Shown here one piece after another: positions 2,414 through 13,664 of a DNA stretch of 23,603 nucleotides (positions within the stretch are counted from its first letter, which is position 1; each line of letters begins with the position of its first letter). The notes under the pieces are model-generated. The model was not told the origin of the DNA, searched no databases, and saw only the letters and a list, made by a program, of their open reading frames with translations. Source of the stretch: a virus; the IMG/VR virus record IMGVR_UViG_3300003885_000102, positions 1 to 23,603 of that record; one strand, written 5' to 3'. The position numbers and the translations under genes were made by a program.

Positions 2414-2767
2414 ATGATTATCGCTAAAGAAAAAGAGGGTCGATCTTTTGATATTGTGGTGCCTGATAAAAAGCAGGGCATAGCAGATATTGTGCCATAT
2501 CTTGAGTCGACGGTAGAACTTGACGATTTAGCGGCTTTCATCCAAAGCGACCGTGAGGTCAGTCTTTTGGGTAGCGTACCTTATACGATTACAAGCGGTC
2601 TCCAATTATCGATAGGTGAAGCGCGTGGGGCTTTTTTGGCTGATTATGATTGCAAGTCACCCATAAAGGAAGGGCGTCTTTATTGGCGGACAAAGCCGGC
2701 CTTATTCACATTCAGTGATCAGACTGGTTTTAAGTACGAAATAACCTGTCGTTTTTCAATTGTCTAG
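2414..2767 (+). CDS. Hypothetical protein directly upstream of the large terminase
   Basis: A 117-aa open frame starting at ATG 2414 (a TTG directly before it is a less likely start). It is the first gene of the rightward block, and its stop overlaps the start of the terminase gene by eight bases, so translation is probably coupled. Codon choice looks like that of its neighbours. This is the place where many phages encode the small terminase subunit, but I see no helix-turn-helix or terminase-small-subunit pattern: the sequence is a charged N-terminal half followed by a beta-rich C-terminal half (YTITSGLQLSIGEARGAFL, then RLYWRTKPALFTF). The Shine-Dalgarno signal is weak. I do not recognise it. 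It could be a divergent small terminase subunit or an unrelated early gene. Confidence 0.5.
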   Translation: MIIAKEKEGRSFDIVVPDKKQGIADIVPYLESTVELDDLAAFIQSDREVSLLGSVPYTITSGLQLSIGEARGAFLADYDCKSPIKEGRLYWRTKPALFTFSDQTGFKYEITCRFSIV

Positions 2768-4205
2768 ACTGACGGCGGGTAATCTGGCGGGTTTGGTTAA
2801 GCTCTTTTTATTGCCCCGCTATGATGCACCACAACCTATTCCACCCTTTCACCATGTCTTGTGGGATCACTGTTGTTCTATCGATACGCATGTGGCCTTA
2901 GCGGCGCCACGGGGGACCGCTAAGAGTACCTGTATCACACATGCCTATACCATTGGTAATGCCTTGATGGGGGATCGCGACTTTATTCTGATTATCAGTG
3001 ATACCGAGACACAGGCAGCACAGTTTTTAGGTGATATCAAGGCAGAATTTCAGGAAAACGAACCGTTAATAAAACAGTTCGGGATCAAAAAGTTTCTCAA
3101 AGAGACCGAGACCGACATTATCGTTGAAACCATTGCGGGACGGTTTCGTATTATCGCCAAGGGGTCCGAGCAAAAGGTCCGAGGTCTCAAATGGGGTAAT
3201 AAGCGGCCTAATCTGATTGTGATCGATGACTCGGAAAACGATGAGTCGGTTATGAATCCAGAGCGCCGTGAAAAATTCCGTAACTGGTTTATGAATGCGT
3301 TATTACCTTGCGGTAGTGATCACTGTATCTACCGTATGGTCGGTACCATTTTACACCTCGATTCGATGTTAAACCGGCTCTTGAGTGATAAGTCATGGCG
3401 CACGCAGCGATGGCAGGCCCACAACAAAGACTTTACCGATCTGCTTTGGCCTGAAAAATTCCCCAAGGAACGTTTGCAGAAAATCCGCTTAGGCTATGAA
3501 GAGCAAGGCAATCTTGAGGGTTACGCGCAAGAGTACCTCAATAATCCCGTTATTGAGGGCAATACCTATTTTCGTAAACAAGATTTTCTTGAGATGGAAA
3601 AGACCGGGAAAGATCAGGAAATGGTCTATGTCGCCGCTGCTGACTTTGCGATCTCTGAGCGCGAGAAGGCGGATTTTACCGTACTGATGGTCGCGGGTAT
3701 CGATGCCAAGGGGATTATTAATGTTGTTGACTGTCGGCGGGGTCGTTTTGATGCCGATGAGATTATCAGCGAGCTTTTGTCCGTTCAGCGTCGTTGGCGT
3801 CCTGACATATTTACCTTTGAAACTGAAAAAATTGATAAAGCCATCGGTCCTTTTTTAGAGCGCGAGATGATTCGCCAAGGTGTTTATATCAATATTCATA
3901 AGATGGTTCCCACCAAGTCTAAAACAACACGCGGTCGTAGTATCCAAGCCATGATGAAGGCAGGCGGTGTGAAGTTTGACAAAGACAATGACTGGTACGC
4001 CGACCTTGAGTCTGAATTAATGACCATTACGCCCGCTGGACCCAAGGGGCGCCATGATGACTTTTTTGATGCCTTTGCCTACATCGGCCTTACGGTTAAT
4101 TTGTACCATGAAGCGCGCACGCCCGCTGAAGTTGAAGAAGATGAATGGGAAGAGGAAATACACATTAATTTTGGTTATGGCGCAAGTGCCGTAACCGGTT
4201 ACTAG
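2760..4205 (+). CDS. terL: Terminase large subunit (DNA-packaging ATPase and nuclease)
   Basis: A 481-aa motor protein that pumps phage DNA into the procapsid through the portal and cuts the concatemer. The N-terminal ATPase shows Walker A APRGTAKST at residues 49-57 and Walker B LIVIDD at 152-157 followed by S-E-N-D. The C-terminal RNase H-like nuclease shows the expected acidic residues in AADFA (D295), FTFETE (around E354) and GRHDDFFDAFAY (D433/D434). Length is normal for the family. The start is a TTG at 2760: an in-frame stop lies at 2742-2744, the next ATG (about residue 70) would remove Walker A, and the eight-base overlap with the preceding gene suggests coupled translation. No obvious Shine-Dalgarno is present. 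The family is confident; the packaging strategy cannot be read from the sequence. Confidence 0.95.
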   Translation: MSRLTAGNLAGLVKLFLLPRYDAPQPIPPFHHVLWDHCCSIDTHVALAAPRGTAKSTCITHAYTIGNALMGDRDFILIISDTETQAAQFLGDIKAEFQENEPLIKQFGIKKFLKETETDIIVETIAGRFRIIAKGSEQKVRGLKWGNKRPNLIVIDDSENDESVMNPERREKFRNWFMNALLPCGSDHCIYRMVGTILHLDSMLNRLLSDKSWRTQRWQAHNKDFTDLLWPEKFPKERLQKIRLGYEEQGNLEGYAQEYLNNPVIEGNTYFRKQDFLEMEKTGKDQEMVYVAAADFAISEREKADFTVLMVAGIDAKGIINVVDCRRGRFDADEIISELLSVQRRWRPDIFTFETEKIDKAIGPFLEREMIRQGVYINIHKMVPTKSKTTRGRSIQAMMKAGGVKFDKDNDWYADLESELMTITPAGPKGRHDDFFDAFAYIGLTVNLYHEARTPAEVEEDEWEEEIHINFGYGASAVTGY

Positions 4206-4216
4206 GATGTCAATAC

Positions 4217-6193
4217 ATGCCGTCTATTGAACAGATACTCGCCGTCGATAATGTGGCTGAATTGCTTACCGATGACGAGCAGCATGACGTTTGCGCTAAA
4301 GCCCTGCGCGGTTTTGATAATGATTTAGCGTCTCGGACCGAGTGGGAAGAGCGTAATCGCGAGGCAATGGACTTAGCCTTGCAAGTCTCGAAAGAAAAAT
4401 CGACACCTTGGAAAAATGCCAGCAACGTCAAATTTCCCCTTATTACTATTGGCGCCATTCAGTTTAGCAGTCGCACCTATCCGGCTATGGTGAACGGCTC
4501 TGATATCGTCAAGTGTCGTGTCATTGGCAATGATGATACCGGTGAAAAAGAAAAGCGAGCAAAACGCATCTCGGACCATATGTCTTATCAGGTGCTTGAG
4601 GAGGATGAAGGCTGGGAAGAGGAGTTCGATAAGTTGCTTATGTCGCTGCCGATTATGGGTTGTGGCTTTAAAAAATCATATTTTGATTCACAGTTGGGAC
4701 ATAACGTATCGGTTAATGTTTTTCCTAAGCATCTTGTGGTTGATTACTTTGCCCGATCTTTAGAGACCGCTAAACGCGCCACGCATATTCTGGAATTCTA
4801 TAAAAATCAAATCATCGAAAAAATGCGCGGCGGTATTTATTTAGAACATGATATCGGCTTAGCGCCGATGCATTCCGATGATGCAGTGGATGAACGCCAG
4901 GGGACGTATGCGACCGATACCGAGGCGACGCATGTTGTTTTGGAACAGCATACGTGGTGCGACTTGGATAATGACGGTTACGAGGAACCCTATATTGTTA
5001 CATTCCTAAAAGACACGCAAAAAATACTGCGCATTGTGCCTCGTTTTAATGAGGCCAGGATACAGCGGGTTAGTGGCCGCATCGCCAAAATTGTGCCGAT
5101 TCATTATTTTACGAAATACTCCTTTATCCCTGCGCCGGATGGCGGTTTTTATGATCTGGGCTTTGGTTCGCTGATCGGCCCCATTACAGAATCGATTAAC
5201 ACCTTGATTAATCAGTTAATCGATAGCGGTACGCTGGCGAATATGCCGTCGGGTTTTATCGGGCGGGGTGCCCGCATGCGCGGGGGCGAGTATCGCTTTA
5301 AGGGCGGTGAGTTTAAGCAGATCAACGCCACGGGTGACGATTTACGCAAGAGCATTTTCATGCTACCGACAAAGGAGCCTTCGCAGACCTTGTTTCAATT
5401 ATTGGGCCTGCTGATCGAATACGGGGAACGTATTTCGGGTGTGACCGATATGATGGCAGGACAAACCCCGGGGCAGAATACCCCAGCCACAACGGCGATG
5501 GCGGCCTTAGAGCAGGGTCAAAAGGTGTTTTCGGGTATCCATAAACGCGTCTACCGTTCCTTACGATCTGAGTTTAGAAAGCTTTATCAGCTCAATGCCA
5601 CTTACCTGAATCCTGATGATTATTACCAAGTGCTTGATGGTGAGAATCAGCAGATATATCAACAGGATTATCAGGGCGATCCTACGGATATTAAACCGTC
5701 CGCTGATCCAAATTTATCATCCTCGCAGCAGCGGGTTGCTAAGGCAATGTTGGTCAAGCAGAACGCCACGCAGGCGATGTCACCCTATAACGGCTATGAG
5801 GTCGAAAAACGGCTTCTTGAGGCGGCAGAGATCGCTAATATCGAGTCGATTATGCCGGACCCTCAAGGTAAGAATGCCATCCCTGAAACGCCCGATCCAA
5901 AAATCGAAATAGAGTCCGCCACGTTCCAGCGTGATTCGGAAAATCAAGCAGAAGAATTGCAGATAAAAGCCATGCAGGCCGAGGCTGATATCGCTGTGAA
6001 AGAAACGCAGGCGATATTAAATCTCGCAAAAGCCGAGGCGCAAGAAGACGGTACGCAGATCAATTTGTATAAAAATCAATTAGACAGTTTTAAAGAACGT
6101 CGCGAACAATTAAAGGCCATGATCGATGCTCAGGATAAACAACGCGGACTTCAAGGAATGGAAGGAAAACCCGGTAACGGAGCTGTTCCTTAA
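4217..6193 (+). CDS. Portal protein
   Basis: A 658-aa protein that forms the dodecameric ring at one capsid vertex, through which DNA enters and leaves and to which the tail attaches. It belongs to the large portal group of podovirus-like phages: early W-E-E-R-N-R-E-A, then S-T-P-W-K-N-A-S-N-V-K-F-P-L-I (about residues 61-75), PIHYFTKYSFIPAPDGGFYDLGFGSLIGP in the middle, and GVTDMMAGQTPGQNTPATT (about 412-430) before a long charged helical C-terminus (about 560-650), as in the crown/barrel of P22-type portals. It starts 11 bases after the terminase stop with an AGGA-type ribosome-binding site, and its 3' end overlaps the next gene by 68 nt. Family and role are confident; the subfamily rests on size and context. 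Confidence 0.92.
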   Translation: MPSIEQILAVDNVAELLTDDEQHDVCAKALRGFDNDLASRTEWEERNREAMDLALQVSKEKSTPWKNASNVKFPLITIGAIQFSSRTYPAMVNGSDIVKCRVIGNDDTGEKEKRAKRISDHMSYQVLEEDEGWEEEFDKLLMSLPIMGCGFKKSYFDSQLGHNVSVNVFPKHLVVDYFARSLETAKRATHILEFYKNQIIEKMRGGIYLEHDIGLAPMHSDDAVDERQGTYATDTEATHVVLEQHTWCDLDNDGYEEPYIVTFLKDTQKILRIVPRFNEARIQRVSGRIAKIVPIHYFTKYSFIPAPDGGFYDLGFGSLIGPITESINTLINQLIDSGTLANMPSGFIGRGARMRGGEYRFKGGEFKQINATGDDLRKSIFMLPTKEPSQTLFQLLGLLIEYGERISGVTDMMAGQTPGQNTPATTAMAALEQGQKVFSGIHKRVYRSLRSEFRKLYQLNATYLNPDDYYQVLDGENQQIYQQDYQGDPTDIKPSADPNLSSSQQRVAKAMLVKQNATQAMSPYNGYEVEKRLLEAAEIANIESIMPDPQGKNAIPETPDPKIEIESATFQRDSENQAEELQIKAMQAEADIAVKETQAILNLAKAEAQEDGTQINLYKNQLDSFKERREQLKAMIDAQDKQRGLQGMEGKPGNGAVP

Positions 6194-8655: not shown

Positions 8656-9567
8656 ATGGCAGTTATTACTAGTGGTAATCATCCCAAACTCTTATGGCCG
8701 GGTATTAAGGCGATTTGGGGGCGGTCATACGGTCAGCATGCAATGGAATATAGCGATATATTCGATTCAGATAATTCGACGCAATCGTATGAAGAGGATC
8801 TGCATATTACGGGGTTTGGTTTAGCACCCGTTAAGGCTGAGGGTAATTCAACAACGTACGATTCGGAAACGCAGGGTTATACGTCGCGTTATACGAATGT
8901 AGCTTATTCGTTGGGTTATATCGTGACGCGGGAAGAACGTGACGACAATCTTTACATGAAGTCGTCTAAGACCCGCGCTACTGCGCTGGCTTTCTCTATG
9001 GTCCAGACGGAAGAAAATGTTGCGGCCAATGTGATTAATCGGGGCTTTAATCCGATCTATCCCGGTGGGGATGGCGTTGAGTTGTTTTCGGTGGCGCATA
9101 CCGATGACGTGGGGGGCGTCTGGTCTAATCGGCTGGCGGTTGGGGCTGATTTGAGTGAGGCGGCGTTAGAGGACTTGCTGATTCAAATTTCGGATGCCCG
9201 TAACGGCAAAAACCTGAAAATCAGTATTTCGGGTCAAAAGTTGCTTATTCCAACCGCGTTGCAGTTTGAGGCGGAACGTATCTTAAATACGTCACTACGG
9301 TCGGGCACAGCGGACAATGATGTTAATGCCATGCGTTCACGCGGTTTGCTGCCGGGTGGTATTGCGATTAATCATTATTTTACCGATCCCGATGCCTTTT
9401 ACATCAAGACCAATGCACCAGAAGGTATGAAGAAGTACAACCGTGTTGCTATGCAGTTCACGCAGGATAATGACTTCGATACGGATAACGCCAAGGCTAA
9501 GGCCTATGTGCGCTATGCCTTCGGATGGACGGACCCGCGTGGTATGTACGGTAGCCCGGGCGCTTAA
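8656..9567 (+). CDS. Major capsid protein (Mu gpT-like, HK97 fold probable)
   Basis: A 303-aa protein resembling the gpT-type major head subunit group. Recognisable points are the N-terminal GIKAIWGRSY and YSDIFD, LGYIVTREERDDNLY (about residues 87-101) followed by a helix, LFSVAHTDDVGGVWSN in the middle, KLLIPTALQFEAERIL and the C-terminal KAYVRYAFGWTDPRGMYGSPGA. Position after scaffold and decoration genes, length, and an AAGGGGA ribosome-binding site (strong expression) support it as the coat subunit. A strong hairpin follows. The HK97 fold is expected for the family, not visible. Naming it Mu-like is less certain than the role. Confidence 0.85.
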   Translation: MAVITSGNHPKLLWPGIKAIWGRSYGQHAMEYSDIFDSDNSTQSYEEDLHITGFGLAPVKAEGNSTTYDSETQGYTSRYTNVAYSLGYIVTREERDDNLYMKSSKTRATALAFSMVQTEENVAANVINRGFNPIYPGGDGVELFSVAHTDDVGGVWSNRLAVGADLSEAALEDLLIQISDARNGKNLKISISGQKLLIPTALQFEAERILNTSLRSGTADNDVNAMRSRGLLPGGIAINHYFTDPDAFYIKTNAPEGMKKYNRVAMQFTQDNDFDTDNAKAKAYVRYAFGWTDPRGMYGSPGA

Positions 9568-9614: not shown

Positions 9615-9869
9615 TTATTGAATATTCTTTTTTGACGTTAGATTGCTTTGAGCAATAGCCAGAATTTTAGACTGGGTTGCTTGTATTTGCTTTAGCTGTT
9701 CTTGAATGCCACCTAATTCCCGCGCCTGACTTAATAGGACACCAGCGATTAACATCGTCAATCCCGTTAATGCCGCTAAGGCCCATTGGGTGAATTTCTG
9801 ATTGACTTTTATGCTCACGATATCGTTTGGTGATAACGGCATGTGCGCTTTAATTGTCTTGGTGTTCAT
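9615..9869 (-). CDS. Small membrane protein with C-terminal coiled coil (antisense cassette gene 3)
   Basis: An 84-aa protein with a hydrophilic N-terminus, one strong membrane segment (WALAALTGLTMLIAGVLLS, about residues 29-47) and a helix with heptad character (LGGIQEQLKQIQATQSKIL). There is no signal peptidase site. Its start overlaps the preceding gene by ATGA. The same layout, a short N-terminus, one membrane helix and a coiled coil, is found in the preceding gene, so the two products may pair. A holin, an inner-membrane spanin or a superinfection-exclusion factor would each fit the shape; no motif chooses between them. A second ATG at residue 10 is a possible start. Confidence 0.65.
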   Translation of the reverse strand: MNTKTIKAHMPLSPNDIVSIKVNQKFTQWALAALTGLTMLIAGVLLSQARELGGIQEQLKQIQATQSKILAIAQSNLTSKKNIQ

Positions 9870-10138
9870 TTGTCGGCCTTCAATAGTCTTGATATTTCTT
9901 TTTGACCGGTGGCGAGCGTTTTTTGGTTTTCTGCCAATGATTTTTGGTTGGTTTCTAATGCCTTGACGGTCTTTTTAATATCGTCCAGGTCTTTAAGTTG
10001 ATATTTAATGATACCAAGGTCCGTTTTTGTCTCGATCATGAGGCTGCCTAAGAGCAATACAACGGCAAAGGTCAGGCCTGATATCCATACCGATAGCTGC
10101 CCGGGGATACGGTCGACAGTTTCGCTGTGCGCTTTCAT
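9866..10138 (-). CDS. Small membrane protein with C-terminal coiled coil (antisense cassette gene 2)
   Basis: A 90-aa protein with a short hydrophilic N-terminus, one membrane helix (WISGLTFAVVLLLGSLMI, about residues 18-35) and a long coiled coil in which NQKSLAE-NQKTLAT-GQKEISR forms three successive heptads. It overlaps both neighbours by ATGA, so all three genes of the cassette are probably translated together. It shares architecture with the next gene. Membrane-anchored helices of this kind occur in inner-membrane spanins and in small exclusion proteins, but it is shorter than most spanin subunits and no outer-membrane partner is next to it. Function unresolved. Confidence 0.68.
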   Translation of the reverse strand: MKAHSETVDRIPGQLSVWISGLTFAVVLLLGSLMIETKTDLGIIKYQLKDLDDIKKTVKALETNQKSLAENQKTLATGQKEISRLLKADK

Positions 10139-10371
10139 TTTACGGCGCTCAGCAGTTCGGGAATGACAAGCTGACGAATGTCGCCGTTGTCTTGATTGGC
10201 GGACACGATGATCCGGCCATTGGCGATTTCATCAAGTGCCCAGCTTAACAATGTCAGCGATGCCGTCGTTATTTTTCGGTACGATTGGCGGCCCATGTGA
10301 TGCTGGATGGCCTGTAGTTGTTGGGTGTCGATGCGTACCCGGATATCAGTTTGGTCGTGAACGTTTTCCAT
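10135..10371 (-). CDS. Ribbon-helix-helix-like small regulator (antisense cassette gene 1)
   Basis: A 78-aa protein. DIRVRID (residues 9-15) looks like the DNA-contacting strand of a ribbon-helix-helix fold, followed by two helices (TQQLQAIQHHMG and a second one in ITTASLTLLSWALDEI). It ends with N-G-R-I-I-V-S-A-N ... I-R-Q-L-V-I-P-E-L, the usual tail of small phage/plasmid proteins of this class. The frame is open to 10542, but ATG 10371 is preferred: AAGGGA lies eight bases upstream, the domain begins right after it, and the extension would run through the promoter. First gene of a three-gene cassette with its own promoter; autoregulation is plausible because of the GACA boxes in its leader. 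Confidence 0.65.
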   Translation of the reverse strand: MENVHDQTDIRVRIDTQQLQAIQHHMGRQSYRKITTASLTLLSWALDEIANGRIIVSANQDNGDIRQLVIPELLSAVK

Positions 10372-10375
10372 ATAG

Positions 10376-10413
10376 TGTCCCTTTTGTTGTCTTATTTGTC
10401 CCGCTATGTTGTC
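10376..10413 (-). promoter_or_regulatory. Four GACA boxes in the leader of the antisense cassette (possible operator)
   Basis: On the minus strand GACA occurs four times in 38 bases (plus positions 10376-10379, 10388-10391, 10397-10400, 10410-10413), at steps of 12, 9 and 13 bases. The boxes lie between the -10 box and the start codon of the ribbon-helix-helix-like gene. Such regulators often bind short direct repeats about one helical turn apart, so autorepression is possible. A four-base word is weak evidence by itself. Confidence 0.3.
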
Positions 10414-10424
10414 CTCATTATAGG
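10396..10424 (+). promoter_or_regulatory. Weak rightward promoter candidate overlapping the antisense promoter
   Basis: TTGTCC (10396-10401), 17 bases, TATAGG (10419-10424). Each hexamer matches sigma70 at four of six positions. It would restart rightward transcription after the hairpin at 9578-9612 and reach the gene starting at 10481. It overlaps the -10 box of the leftward promoter, so the two could not be used at once. Weak evidence on sequence alone. Confidence 0.3.
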
Positions 10425-10445
10425 GCAATTTTGCGGCTTTATCAA
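10417..10445 (-). promoter_or_regulatory. Near-consensus sigma70 promoter of the antisense cassette
   Basis: On the minus strand TTGATA (plus positions 10440-10445) is followed after exactly 17 bases by TATAAT (10417-10422). The -10 box is a perfect match and the -35 box five of six. The expected start is near 10410, giving a leader of about 38 bases to the ATG at 10371. This is the best promoter I see in the window, and it points against the surrounding virion genes. Confidence 0.75.
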
Positions 10446-10480
10446 TGTACTGCCACGTTTTGTGGTGCTCAGGGGGTTTT

Positions 10481-10993
10481 ATGAGTGGTACTAATTTTCG
10501 GTCGGGCGTTTGTGTCCGCAAGCAATACAACGGTTCTGTCATTCAGAGCGATAGATCGGCGAATGCAGCGGTCTCGAAGCTTATTCGCAGGTCAGCGGTG
10601 ATTCACTGTGATGCGCAGACAGTAGAGACGCCCACCGCCTTCGTCTTTCCCTCTAAGGCCATTGTGCGCGAGGTGTTGTTGAATGTCCTTATTCCCGAGG
10701 CCGTTACCGTGCAAGTGGGGTTAATGGGTCCGTTCGCAAACTCGCAGGCCTATGCGGTGCTATTGAGTGTGGCGGCGGTCGGCGTCAAAAACGGTAGTTT
10801 GCTGGATGGGGCTATTACCTTGGGTGATTATCTCTATGAAGAGACGGGTGTGGGTGCGACTGTCGCTTATGCGCGCATGCCAGACCTTTTCGCCGGGGGT
10901 GGTCGCGTTTCTTATAGTTGTTCTGCTGGTGCGGCATTAACCGTTTTCGATATCCTGATCGACTACGACGAAGTCGTCGAAGAGGTTCAATAA
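10481..10993 (+). CDS. Minor virion protein, unknown
   Basis: A 170-aa beta-rich protein with alternating small and hydrophobic residues (SKAIVREVLLNVLIPEAVTVQVGLMG), a Gly/Ala-rich middle and an acidic end (IDYDEVVEEVQ). I do not recognise a named family, but proteins of this composition sit between coat and head-completion genes in many phages and are found in virions. I chose ATG 10481, preceded by a GGGGG Shine-Dalgarno; the earlier TTG at 10445 would overlap the antisense promoter and adds an unlikely Cys/Trp-rich leader. It is the first rightward gene after the antisense cassette and ends one base before the next start. Confidence 0.65.
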   Translation: MSGTNFRSGVCVRKQYNGSVIQSDRSANAAVSKLIRRSAVIHCDAQTVETPTAFVFPSKAIVREVLLNVLIPEAVTVQVGLMGPFANSQAYAVLLSVAAVGVKNGSLLDGAITLGDYLYEETGVGATVAYARMPDLFAGGGRVSYSCSAGAALTVFDILIDYDEVVEEVQ

Positions 10994-11310: not shown

Positions 11311-11712
11311 ATGCCTTTGTGGATAATGTTGATCTTCTGTCTCTTGTCGGGGTGCTCTTCCTCGCCGTTAATTCGTGGCGCTATCGATAGTGTTAGAGAC
11401 AGGCATATCTACATTATTATTAAGCATGAATGGGAGTGCCCCGTGGGACGATCAGACTATTACAAGCATGGTGACAATAATGTTATCTGTGATCGCTGTG
11501 GTTTCAAGTATAAAGCCAGCCAGTTAAGACGCGAATGGAACGGTCTATGGACCTGTCCTTTTGATTGGGAGCCCCGCCACCCTCAAGACCTTATTAAATC
11601 AAAACACGATGATCAGCGGCCTAGTCTTTCACGTCCTGGGGCGGAAGATATTTTTATCCCGGCGGTACCGTTTGCAAATGCCGGTATCGATCAGGTATCG
11701 ATCAGAACGTAA
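11311..11712 (+). CDS. Zinc-ribbon/REJ gene, 5' part, frameshifted by an 11-bp duplication
   Basis: A 133-aa open frame. It begins with a lipoprotein-like signal (hydrophobic IMLIFCLL, lipobox L12-S-G-C15) after a GAGGGGG ribosome-binding site. Residues 45-95 match a common small phage zinc-ribbon family (YKHGDNNVICDRCGFKYKAS ... EWNGLWTCPFDWEPRHPQD) with C60-x-x-C63 and C82, but D85 stands where a fourth Cys is often found. The family usually starts near G-R-S-D-Y-Y-K, and a GTG at 11443 with GGGAG upstream is a fair alternative start. The end, F-A-N-A-G-I-D-Q, is the opening of a REJ/PKD-type Ig domain that continues in another frame at 11694. So this is the 5' part of a broken 468-codon gene. 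Confidence 0.65.
   Translation: MPLWIMLIFCLLSGCSSSPLIRGAIDSVRDRHIYIIIKHEWECPVGRSDYYKHGDNNVICDRCGFKYKASQLRREWNGLWTCPFDWEPRHPQDLIKSKHDDQRPSLSRPGAEDIFIPAVPFANAGIDQVSIRT
11683..11704 (+). repeat. Perfect 11-bp tandem duplication causing a frameshift
   Basis: GGTATCGATCA occurs twice, head to tail, at 11683-11693 and 11694-11704. Removing one copy joins the two flanking frames into A-N-A-G-I-D-Q-N-V-I-V-L-D-L-V-Q-L-D-G, a canonical REJ/PKD domain start, and makes 11311-12728 one open frame of 468 codons. With two copies, translation ends at the TAA at 11710-11712. Confidence 0.9.
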
Positions 11713-11726
11713 TTGTCCTCGATCTG

Positions 11727-12728
11727 GTGCAATTAGACGGCTCACTGAGCCAGGATACGGACGGTTTGTTATTAACCTATCTGTGGACGCAAATTTCAGG
11801 TCCGACAGTGACGTTAAGTTCCAATACGGTTAGTCAGCCAACCTTTGTCGCGCCAAATTTTTTCACTAGCGAAACCCTTCAGTTTTCATTAGTCGTTAAC
11901 AACGGTGGAAAATCAAGCCAGCCAAATACCGTTAACATAGCCGTCAACCTTGTCCCGGGCGCGTGGGATGTCGCCAACATGGTCGCAGCGGGCACCTTCG
12001 ATGTCAGTGTGTTGAGCGAATCGGCCTACCATTGTGTCGTCGAGGCCGATGGTAAATATTTGTTCTGGGCAGTATTTCAATCAAATTTGTTACATCGGGT
12101 GACATTGTTGGACCCGTGGAATGTATTGAGTATCGACATGGGTACGCTACAGACCTATACAGTGACGTTAAATACTATCGGTATAGGGTTTAATCTCGAT
12201 GGCTCGATCATGATTACGACGGATGATACGAATAGATTTATAGAACACGCTATGACGTCGCCCTACGATTTAAATGCCACTACACCAACCGGTAAGGTGG
12301 CGTCTACAGGTATCGTGGGGGTTAACGCTACAGGGGGTCTGCATTTGCATCGGTCGGGAAGTCGGGCCTATGTTGGTAAATTCCTTTCCGGTGCGGGTAA
12401 TATCTACAGCTATACATTATCGAATTTCGATATAAATACCATCGCCCTAGAGGTGGCAAATATCCTGCCGGTACTTTATGCCAATCAGCGCGTCTATCAA
12501 CCCTATGTTCGGGAGGATGGGGCGCGAGCCTACATGGCTTTAAATGCCAATACGAATTTCGATAATATCGATCTATCGCCCGACTACGATCTAACGAGCG
12601 CGGTATTGGGCAATAATTTTGGTTTCCCGGGAACAAGTTCCTATGGCATTTATTGGAAGCCGGATGGGTCGCGGATTTACCGATTAGGAACCACTAGCTT
12701 GATCACACAATACGACGTTACATTATAA
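11727..12728 (+). CDS. REJ/PKD-type Ig domain plus propeller-like virion protein, 3' part of frameshifted gene
   Basis: A 333-aa open frame from a GTG at 11727, but real homology starts upstream at 11694 and in the previous frame. Residues 1 to about 75 complete a REJ/PKD-type Ig domain (QLDGSLSQDTDGLLLTYLWT, GPTVTLSSNTVSQPTFVAP). The remaining 250 residues hold repeats ending in an aromatic strand motif such as GSRIYRLGTTSLITQYDVTL and ending-related units (LHLHRSGSRAYVGKF, VREDGARAYMALN), as in beta-propeller proteins with 'K-P-D-G-x-x-x-Y' repeats. Such a protein would be an exposed head or tail decoration or carbohydrate binder. No convincing ribosome-binding site precedes the GTG, so expression may depend on a frameshift, on loss of one 11-bp copy, or may not occur. 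Confidence 0.65.
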   Translation: MQLDGSLSQDTDGLLLTYLWTQISGPTVTLSSNTVSQPTFVAPNFFTSETLQFSLVVNNGGKSSQPNTVNIAVNLVPGAWDVANMVAAGTFDVSVLSESAYHCVVEADGKYLFWAVFQSNLLHRVTLLDPWNVLSIDMGTLQTYTVTLNTIGIGFNLDGSIMITTDDTNRFIEHAMTSPYDLNATTPTGKVASTGIVGVNATGGLHLHRSGSRAYVGKFLSGAGNIYSYTLSNFDINTIALEVANILPVLYANQRVYQPYVREDGARAYMALNANTNFDNIDLSPDYDLTSAVLGNNFGFPGTSSYGIYWKPDGSRIYRLGTTSLITQYDVTL

Positions 12729-12740
12729 TCGCGAGGCTTT

Positions 12741-13664
12741 ATGGCAACCAGTGGGTCAGTAGACTTTACCTCAACACGAGACGAAATAATCATAGATGCC
12801 CTCACGCTCTGCCGTGCCATTGACCCTGAAGAACCGGTCGGCGCTTTTCAGATAGAGCAATCTGCTCGCTTTCTCAACCGCATGATTAAGACCTTTCAGG
12901 CGCGAGGGCTGGCATTGTGGATGGAGTCGGAAGCTATCTTGTTCATCGATAAAGGCACACGAATCTACACATTTCCAAATGCCAACGCGACCGATCCCGA
13001 GACGTATAACGATACTAAAACAGCGTTGGCCGCCTTAACCGGTGTGACCGCTGTTGATGTCGATAATATCGGGAATACCGCAATAAACGATATCATCTCT
13101 ATTATGCTGGATACCGGTGTCAGGCAGTGGACGACAGTGGTCTCAGTGGCGGGCGTTACGGTGACGATTACCGATGCATTGCTTGCAGATGTCGCTATCG
13201 GTCAAGAAGTTATTACCTTTGCAAAAAAAATCAACAAACCCTTAAAATTATTGTCTGCTAGGCGCACGATCAAAAAAATCGATTCCCCTCTGGAAATCGT
13301 TTCCCGTGAAGAATATGTCGATTTGCCCAATAAGGAGAGTATCGGTCTGATTAATGAGGTCTATTACAAGCCGTTACGATCAACCGGTGAGCTGTACGTT
13401 TGGCCGACCGGTAGCGGTTCTGATGATCGCCTGTCTTTCTCTTACCAGCGCCTCATTGAGGACTTTGACCTCACGGGTGATAACCCTGATCTGCCTGTTG
13501 AATGGCACGAGATGTTGGTCGCTAATCTCGCTCATCGTATCGCGCCCAGCTTCGGTGTGCCGCCCGATGTCTTTGCAATGGTGAAAGAGCAGGCGCAAAT
13601 GACCTATGCAATTGTCGATGGTTTTGATAATGAGTCGACGTCTGCCTATTTGGCGATGCGATGA
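12741..13664 (+). CDS. P22 gp4-like tail accessory factor / head-to-tail adaptor
   Basis: A 307-aa protein that should bind under the portal ring and start tail assembly. The N-terminus DEIIIDALTLCRAI ... QIEQSARFLNRMIKTFQARGLALWM (about residues 13-60) and the C-terminal block WHEMLVANLAHRIAPSFGVP with a final helix match the helical core of P22 gp4-type adaptors. A beta-rich insertion of about 130 residues (about 70-200, including VVSVAGVTVTITDALLADVAIGQEV) accounts for its length over P22 gp4 (166 aa). It directly precedes and overlaps (4 nt) the gp10-like gene, the same order as in P22. Assignment is by pattern and order. Confidence 0.75.
   Translation: MATSGSVDFTSTRDEIIIDALTLCRAIDPEEPVGAFQIEQSARFLNRMIKTFQARGLALWMESEAILFIDKGTRIYTFPNANATDPETYNDTKTALAALTGVTAVDVDNIGNTAINDIISIMLDTGVRQWTTVVSVAGVTVTITDALLADVAIGQEVITFAKKINKPLKLLSARRTIKKIDSPLEIVSREEYVDLPNKESIGLINEVYYKPLRSTGELYVWPTGSGSDDRLSFSYQRLIEDFDLTGDNPDLPVEWHEMLVANLAHRIAPSFGVPPDVFAMVKEQAQMTYAIVDGFDNESTSAYLAMR

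Follow-up and report, generated by a model that had tools for sequence, protein, structure and literature searches.

A perfect 11-bp tandem duplication splits a single gene in the virion block of an SU10-like tailed phage, putting a PKD Ig domain and a repeat region out of frame behind a short zinc-ribbon-like domain. The gene was analysed in a 23,603-bp linear assembled virus record, here called the window, which carries virion genes of the phage (Table 1) and has no DNA-level match among known phages. We consider its most probable history (at roughly 0.55) to be a slippage duplication of recent date by which a dispensable display tail was lost, a change that would be passively reversible and not an evolved switch. 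The exactly defined position of the duplication may be one where a phage has shed an exposed adhesion-like tail or switches it on and off. The position of the split gene between the capsid and tail-adaptor genes makes "virion gene", the label used in a preliminary description of this DNA, a reasonable one, with the location of the product in the virion extrapolated from gene order.

Table 1. Coordinates of the split gene, the repeat and the neighbouring virion genes in the window
Feature	Position	Strand	Remarks
Terminase large subunit	2760-4205
SU10-type portal	4217-6193
Capsid protein	8656-9567
In-frame upstream extension	11311-11442	+	Lipoprotein-like start MPLWIMLIFCLLSGCSSS; missing from homologues
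Zinc-ribbon-like domain gene as sequenced	11443-11712	+	89 aa; GTG start; stop 11710-11712
Copy 1 of the 11-bp unit	11683-11693	+	GGTATCGATCA
Copy 2 of the 11-bp unit	11694-11704	+	Identical to copy 1; shifts the frame, after which the upstream frame ends at 11712
Downstream open frame	11703-12728	+	341 codons without a stop; PKD domain to ~11945, then a repeat-containing, tentatively propeller-like region
SU10-type adaptor	12741-13664		Next gene after the split gene

The repeat at 11683-11704 consists of two adjacent identical copies, which confirms the perfect duplication first described, and is followed by one extra matching base (G at 11705). It is the strongest tandem array in the window, where the unit occurs nowhere else. 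When the window was simulated 300 times with a first-order Markov model, 21 of the copies contained a perfect tandem with a period of at least 9, and the repeat by itself is therefore moderately unusual, not extraordinary; what is non-random about it is its exact coincidence with a switch of reading frame. The copy number, two, is the minimum possible for a repeat. With a unit of 11 bp, a copy-number change shifts the frame, and a single copy gives a joined ORF.

That the two frames are one gene split by the duplication, as had been proposed, finds good support in the boundary of the PKD domain, in the frame switch in codon usage and in the architecture of the family. With two copies present, the upstream frame terminates at a stop at 11710-11712, soon after copy 1 as originally reported; the downstream frame, which is -1 relative to it, is open from 11625 to 12728, giving an overlap of 88 nt (11625-11712). 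Read across one copy, the joined stretch matched PF22352 (PKD, K319L-like; curated cut-off 27) over model positions 1-84 of 84 with 48.1 bits, whereas the downstream frame on its own matched positions 12-84 with 41.4 bits. The junction thus reads as the start of a REJ/PKD-type Ig domain, as the preliminary description had expected: the domain start ANAGIDQ is encoded in the upstream frame, and the frame shift falls within the first strand of the domain. With the remaining genes of the window as training set, the codon-usage score favoured the upstream frame until about 11700 and the downstream frame afterwards; the latter reached 96.8 bits over its 341 codons, and the other two frames were negative and stop-rich. 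Together, the domain and codon evidence suggests that the one-copy state is ancestral.

GTG 11443 is a more likely start of the gene than ATG 11311, because homologues and codon usage point to it. Homologues begin at, or a few residues from, the position encoded by GTG 11443, and the codon-usage score is positive from about this point, with a non-coding value of -7.1 over the 44 codons of 11311-11442. A Shine-Dalgarno-like sequence (GGGAG, 11432-11436) lies ahead of the GTG. Although ATG 11311 is likewise preceded by a strong Shine-Dalgarno-like sequence (GAGGGGG), the upstream extension is probably outside the gene product. This start would give ~424 aa, not 468, for the joined product and 89 aa, not 133, for the truncated one. 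The single 468-codon gene proposed for the one-copy state accordingly stands in so far as the frames do join from ATG 11311, but its N-terminus is probably over-extended, the count from GTG 11443 being 424 codons.

The front part of the gene belongs to an unnamed zinc-ribbon-like family of ~80-90 aa, which lies 3' of the capsid gene and usually beside adaptor or tail genes in related phages, and for which one scan returned at least 589 matching loci. The conserved core (ICDxCG...W...WEPRxPQD) is present in the window protein, which is 35-58% identical to its relatives with 11 invariant columns; this core has three cysteines, not four, and some relatives lack all of them. Measured from the start of the match, ORF length in 124 closed relatives ranged from 68 to 579 aa. 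Stand-alone genes of ~80-90 aa are the rule, and 37 of the 124 (~30%) have at least 125 aa and carry unrelated long tails (repeat, Ig-like or other); the truncated window product is thus about as long as the natural short forms of the family. Relatives whose fronts are 75-90% identical may differ in tail and in tail length. At loci L044, L060, L061, L077 and L191, among others, the C-terminal tails differed strikingly and comprised repeat arrays, Ig-like domains and domains of other kinds. Gene position and domain type suggest that these proteins reside in the virion with their tails exposed. An abundant phage family is thereby brought to light, in which a small conserved domain bears freely swapped tails, where adaptation to host or surface is likely to take place.

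The split gene resembles the zinc-ribbon-like gene found between capsid and adaptor in SU10-like phages in its conserved front, its gene neighbourhood and the variability of the tails, but the combination of PKD and repeat tail on a zinc ribbon was found only in this phage, and out of frame there. The zinc-ribbon alignment search recovered many relatives, none carrying the PKD tail, and searches for either gene half in IMG/VR and for the tail in GTDB genomes returned no relatives. The repeat region of the tail contains five similar motifs, of which only some pairs score above shuffles. Structure prediction for the tail from the single sequence gave a mean pLDDT of 30, and a propeller-like fold of its second half is only weakly suggested. 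Two large hypothetical proteins of the Roseobacter phages CRP-9 and CRP-2 (L041 and L042; about 1,220-1,240 aa) are 24-30% identical to the repeat domain.

The history we favour would begin with a zinc-ribbon-like protein of the virion block that bore the PKD Ig domain and the repeat domain as its C-terminal tail, in a family whose tails would have been swapped freely between relatives. Replication slippage would then have produced a spontaneous, recent 11-bp tandem duplication and with it the frame shift, leaving the current gene to encode the 89-aa front domain only, with the 341-codon tail silent. With two perfect copies side by side, the long form could come back at some low rate through loss of one of them. 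We infer, and do not observe directly, the recency of the duplication, its physical reality in the DNA, slippage as its origin and the dispensability of the tail. The two identical copies and the absence of the repeat from relatives favour a recent event, although identity over just 22 bp dates it weakly.

For calibration, perfect tandem duplications of period 9-40 were collected from 2.33 Mb comprising the window and related phage loci. Among 79 distinct duplications, 71 were multiples of three that keep the frame; 8 were not, seven of these having period 10 and not being flagged as ORF-breaking. The window's 11-bp duplication was the only ORF-breaker in the set, as expected of a fresh, uncommon event, and also the only one of period 11 or more whose length is not divisible by three. 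This rarity is easier to reconcile with a recent mutation or an error than with a design that is selected and recurs.

An assembly error is the main rival to a recent mutation, and we regard it as possible though clearly less probable. In that case the real phage would carry the unit once, with its 424-aa gene intact, and the second copy would stem from a short overlap doubled at a contig join or from a wrongly resolved graph bubble. The near absence of frame-breaking duplications from related phages, the fully intact downstream frame and the nature of the record as an assembled linear contig all speak for this account; however, we came across no further gene in the virion block that was obviously broken, and exact 11-bp duplications also arise through normal mutation. 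Of the three options that the preliminary description had offered, recent mutation and assembly error both fit the data, and phase switching has no positive evidence behind it.

Such a phase switch, in which slippage between one and two copies would determine whether the PKD/repeat tail is displayed on a constantly produced anchor domain, is unlikely in our assessment, even though the unit length is not divisible by three, the whole conserved domain is retained after truncation and the tail is of an adhesion-like type. It is slightly less likely still that the phage population mixes long-tailed and bare particles through gain and loss of one 11-bp copy, with an Ig/repeat adhesion tail toggled on a virion anchor. 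A precedent exists in pneumococcal capsule genes (serotypes 3, 8 and 37), where spontaneous tandem duplications within the ORF disrupt a gene for a surface feature, as here, and are described, with citation of Waite 2001 and 2003, as reversible and as controlling phase variation (PMC4022640, PMC4243769). Reversion and phase change are reported in that system, whereas the present case is a phage gene on one contig with no variant seen. In Xenorhabdus, lrp is disrupted by tandem duplications that arise as ordinary loss mutations and involve no switching mechanism (PMC6786866), and a duplication alone is therefore no evidence of switching. Phase-variable genes of the Neisseria type also have a unit within the coding region that is not a multiple of three, but they contain a long tract of short units, in contrast to the mere two copies of a long unit (an 11-mer) found here. 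Comparison with related phages also went against the idea: none shares the 11-bp repeat, and no clear out-of-frame tail was found in 126 relatives. A pattern scan for one, two or three copies in IMG/VR, from which near-identical records may be left out, revealed no variant. The portal relative L004 (77% identity) ends short of the repeat site. The out-of-frame matches obtained in relatives were weak (30-45% identity over at most 66 aa, beginning several hundred bases downstream), and were read as small domains of neighbouring genes and not as frame breaks.

Recoding, by which the ribosome would shift -1, or hop 11 nt from a codon of one copy to its counterpart in the other, to yield a minor long form, appears very improbable. 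In its favour, the overlap has the downstream frame at -1 with respect to the upstream one, all codons of copy 1 recur 11 nt further on, and phages append Ig-like domains through programmed -1 frameshifting (PMC5009743), with a short and an Ig-tailed form of virion proteins (e.g. in T3 and A2) as could be the case here. Unlike those examples, however, the frame here is changed by a perfect duplication: the overlap at 11625-11712 contains no X XXY YYZ slippery heptamer, RNA folding is not unusual as regards a stimulatory structure (z-score -0.70), and the frame break is not conserved as a signal in relatives.

Least probable of all are two separate genes, with a genuine upstream stop at 11712 and an independently translated downstream ORF, which would agree with the stand-alone genes prevailing among relatives, but the PKD start sits in the upstream frame, the downstream frame has no plausible start taking it in, and the sole standard start near its beginning, GTG 11727, is inside the PKD domain and lacks a Shine-Dalgarno-like sequence. 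Elsewhere in the window, three overlapping minus-strand ORFs (84, 90 and 135 aa; 9615-10542), which matched no Pfam family above its cut-off, lie within the plus-strand virion block right after the capsid gene.
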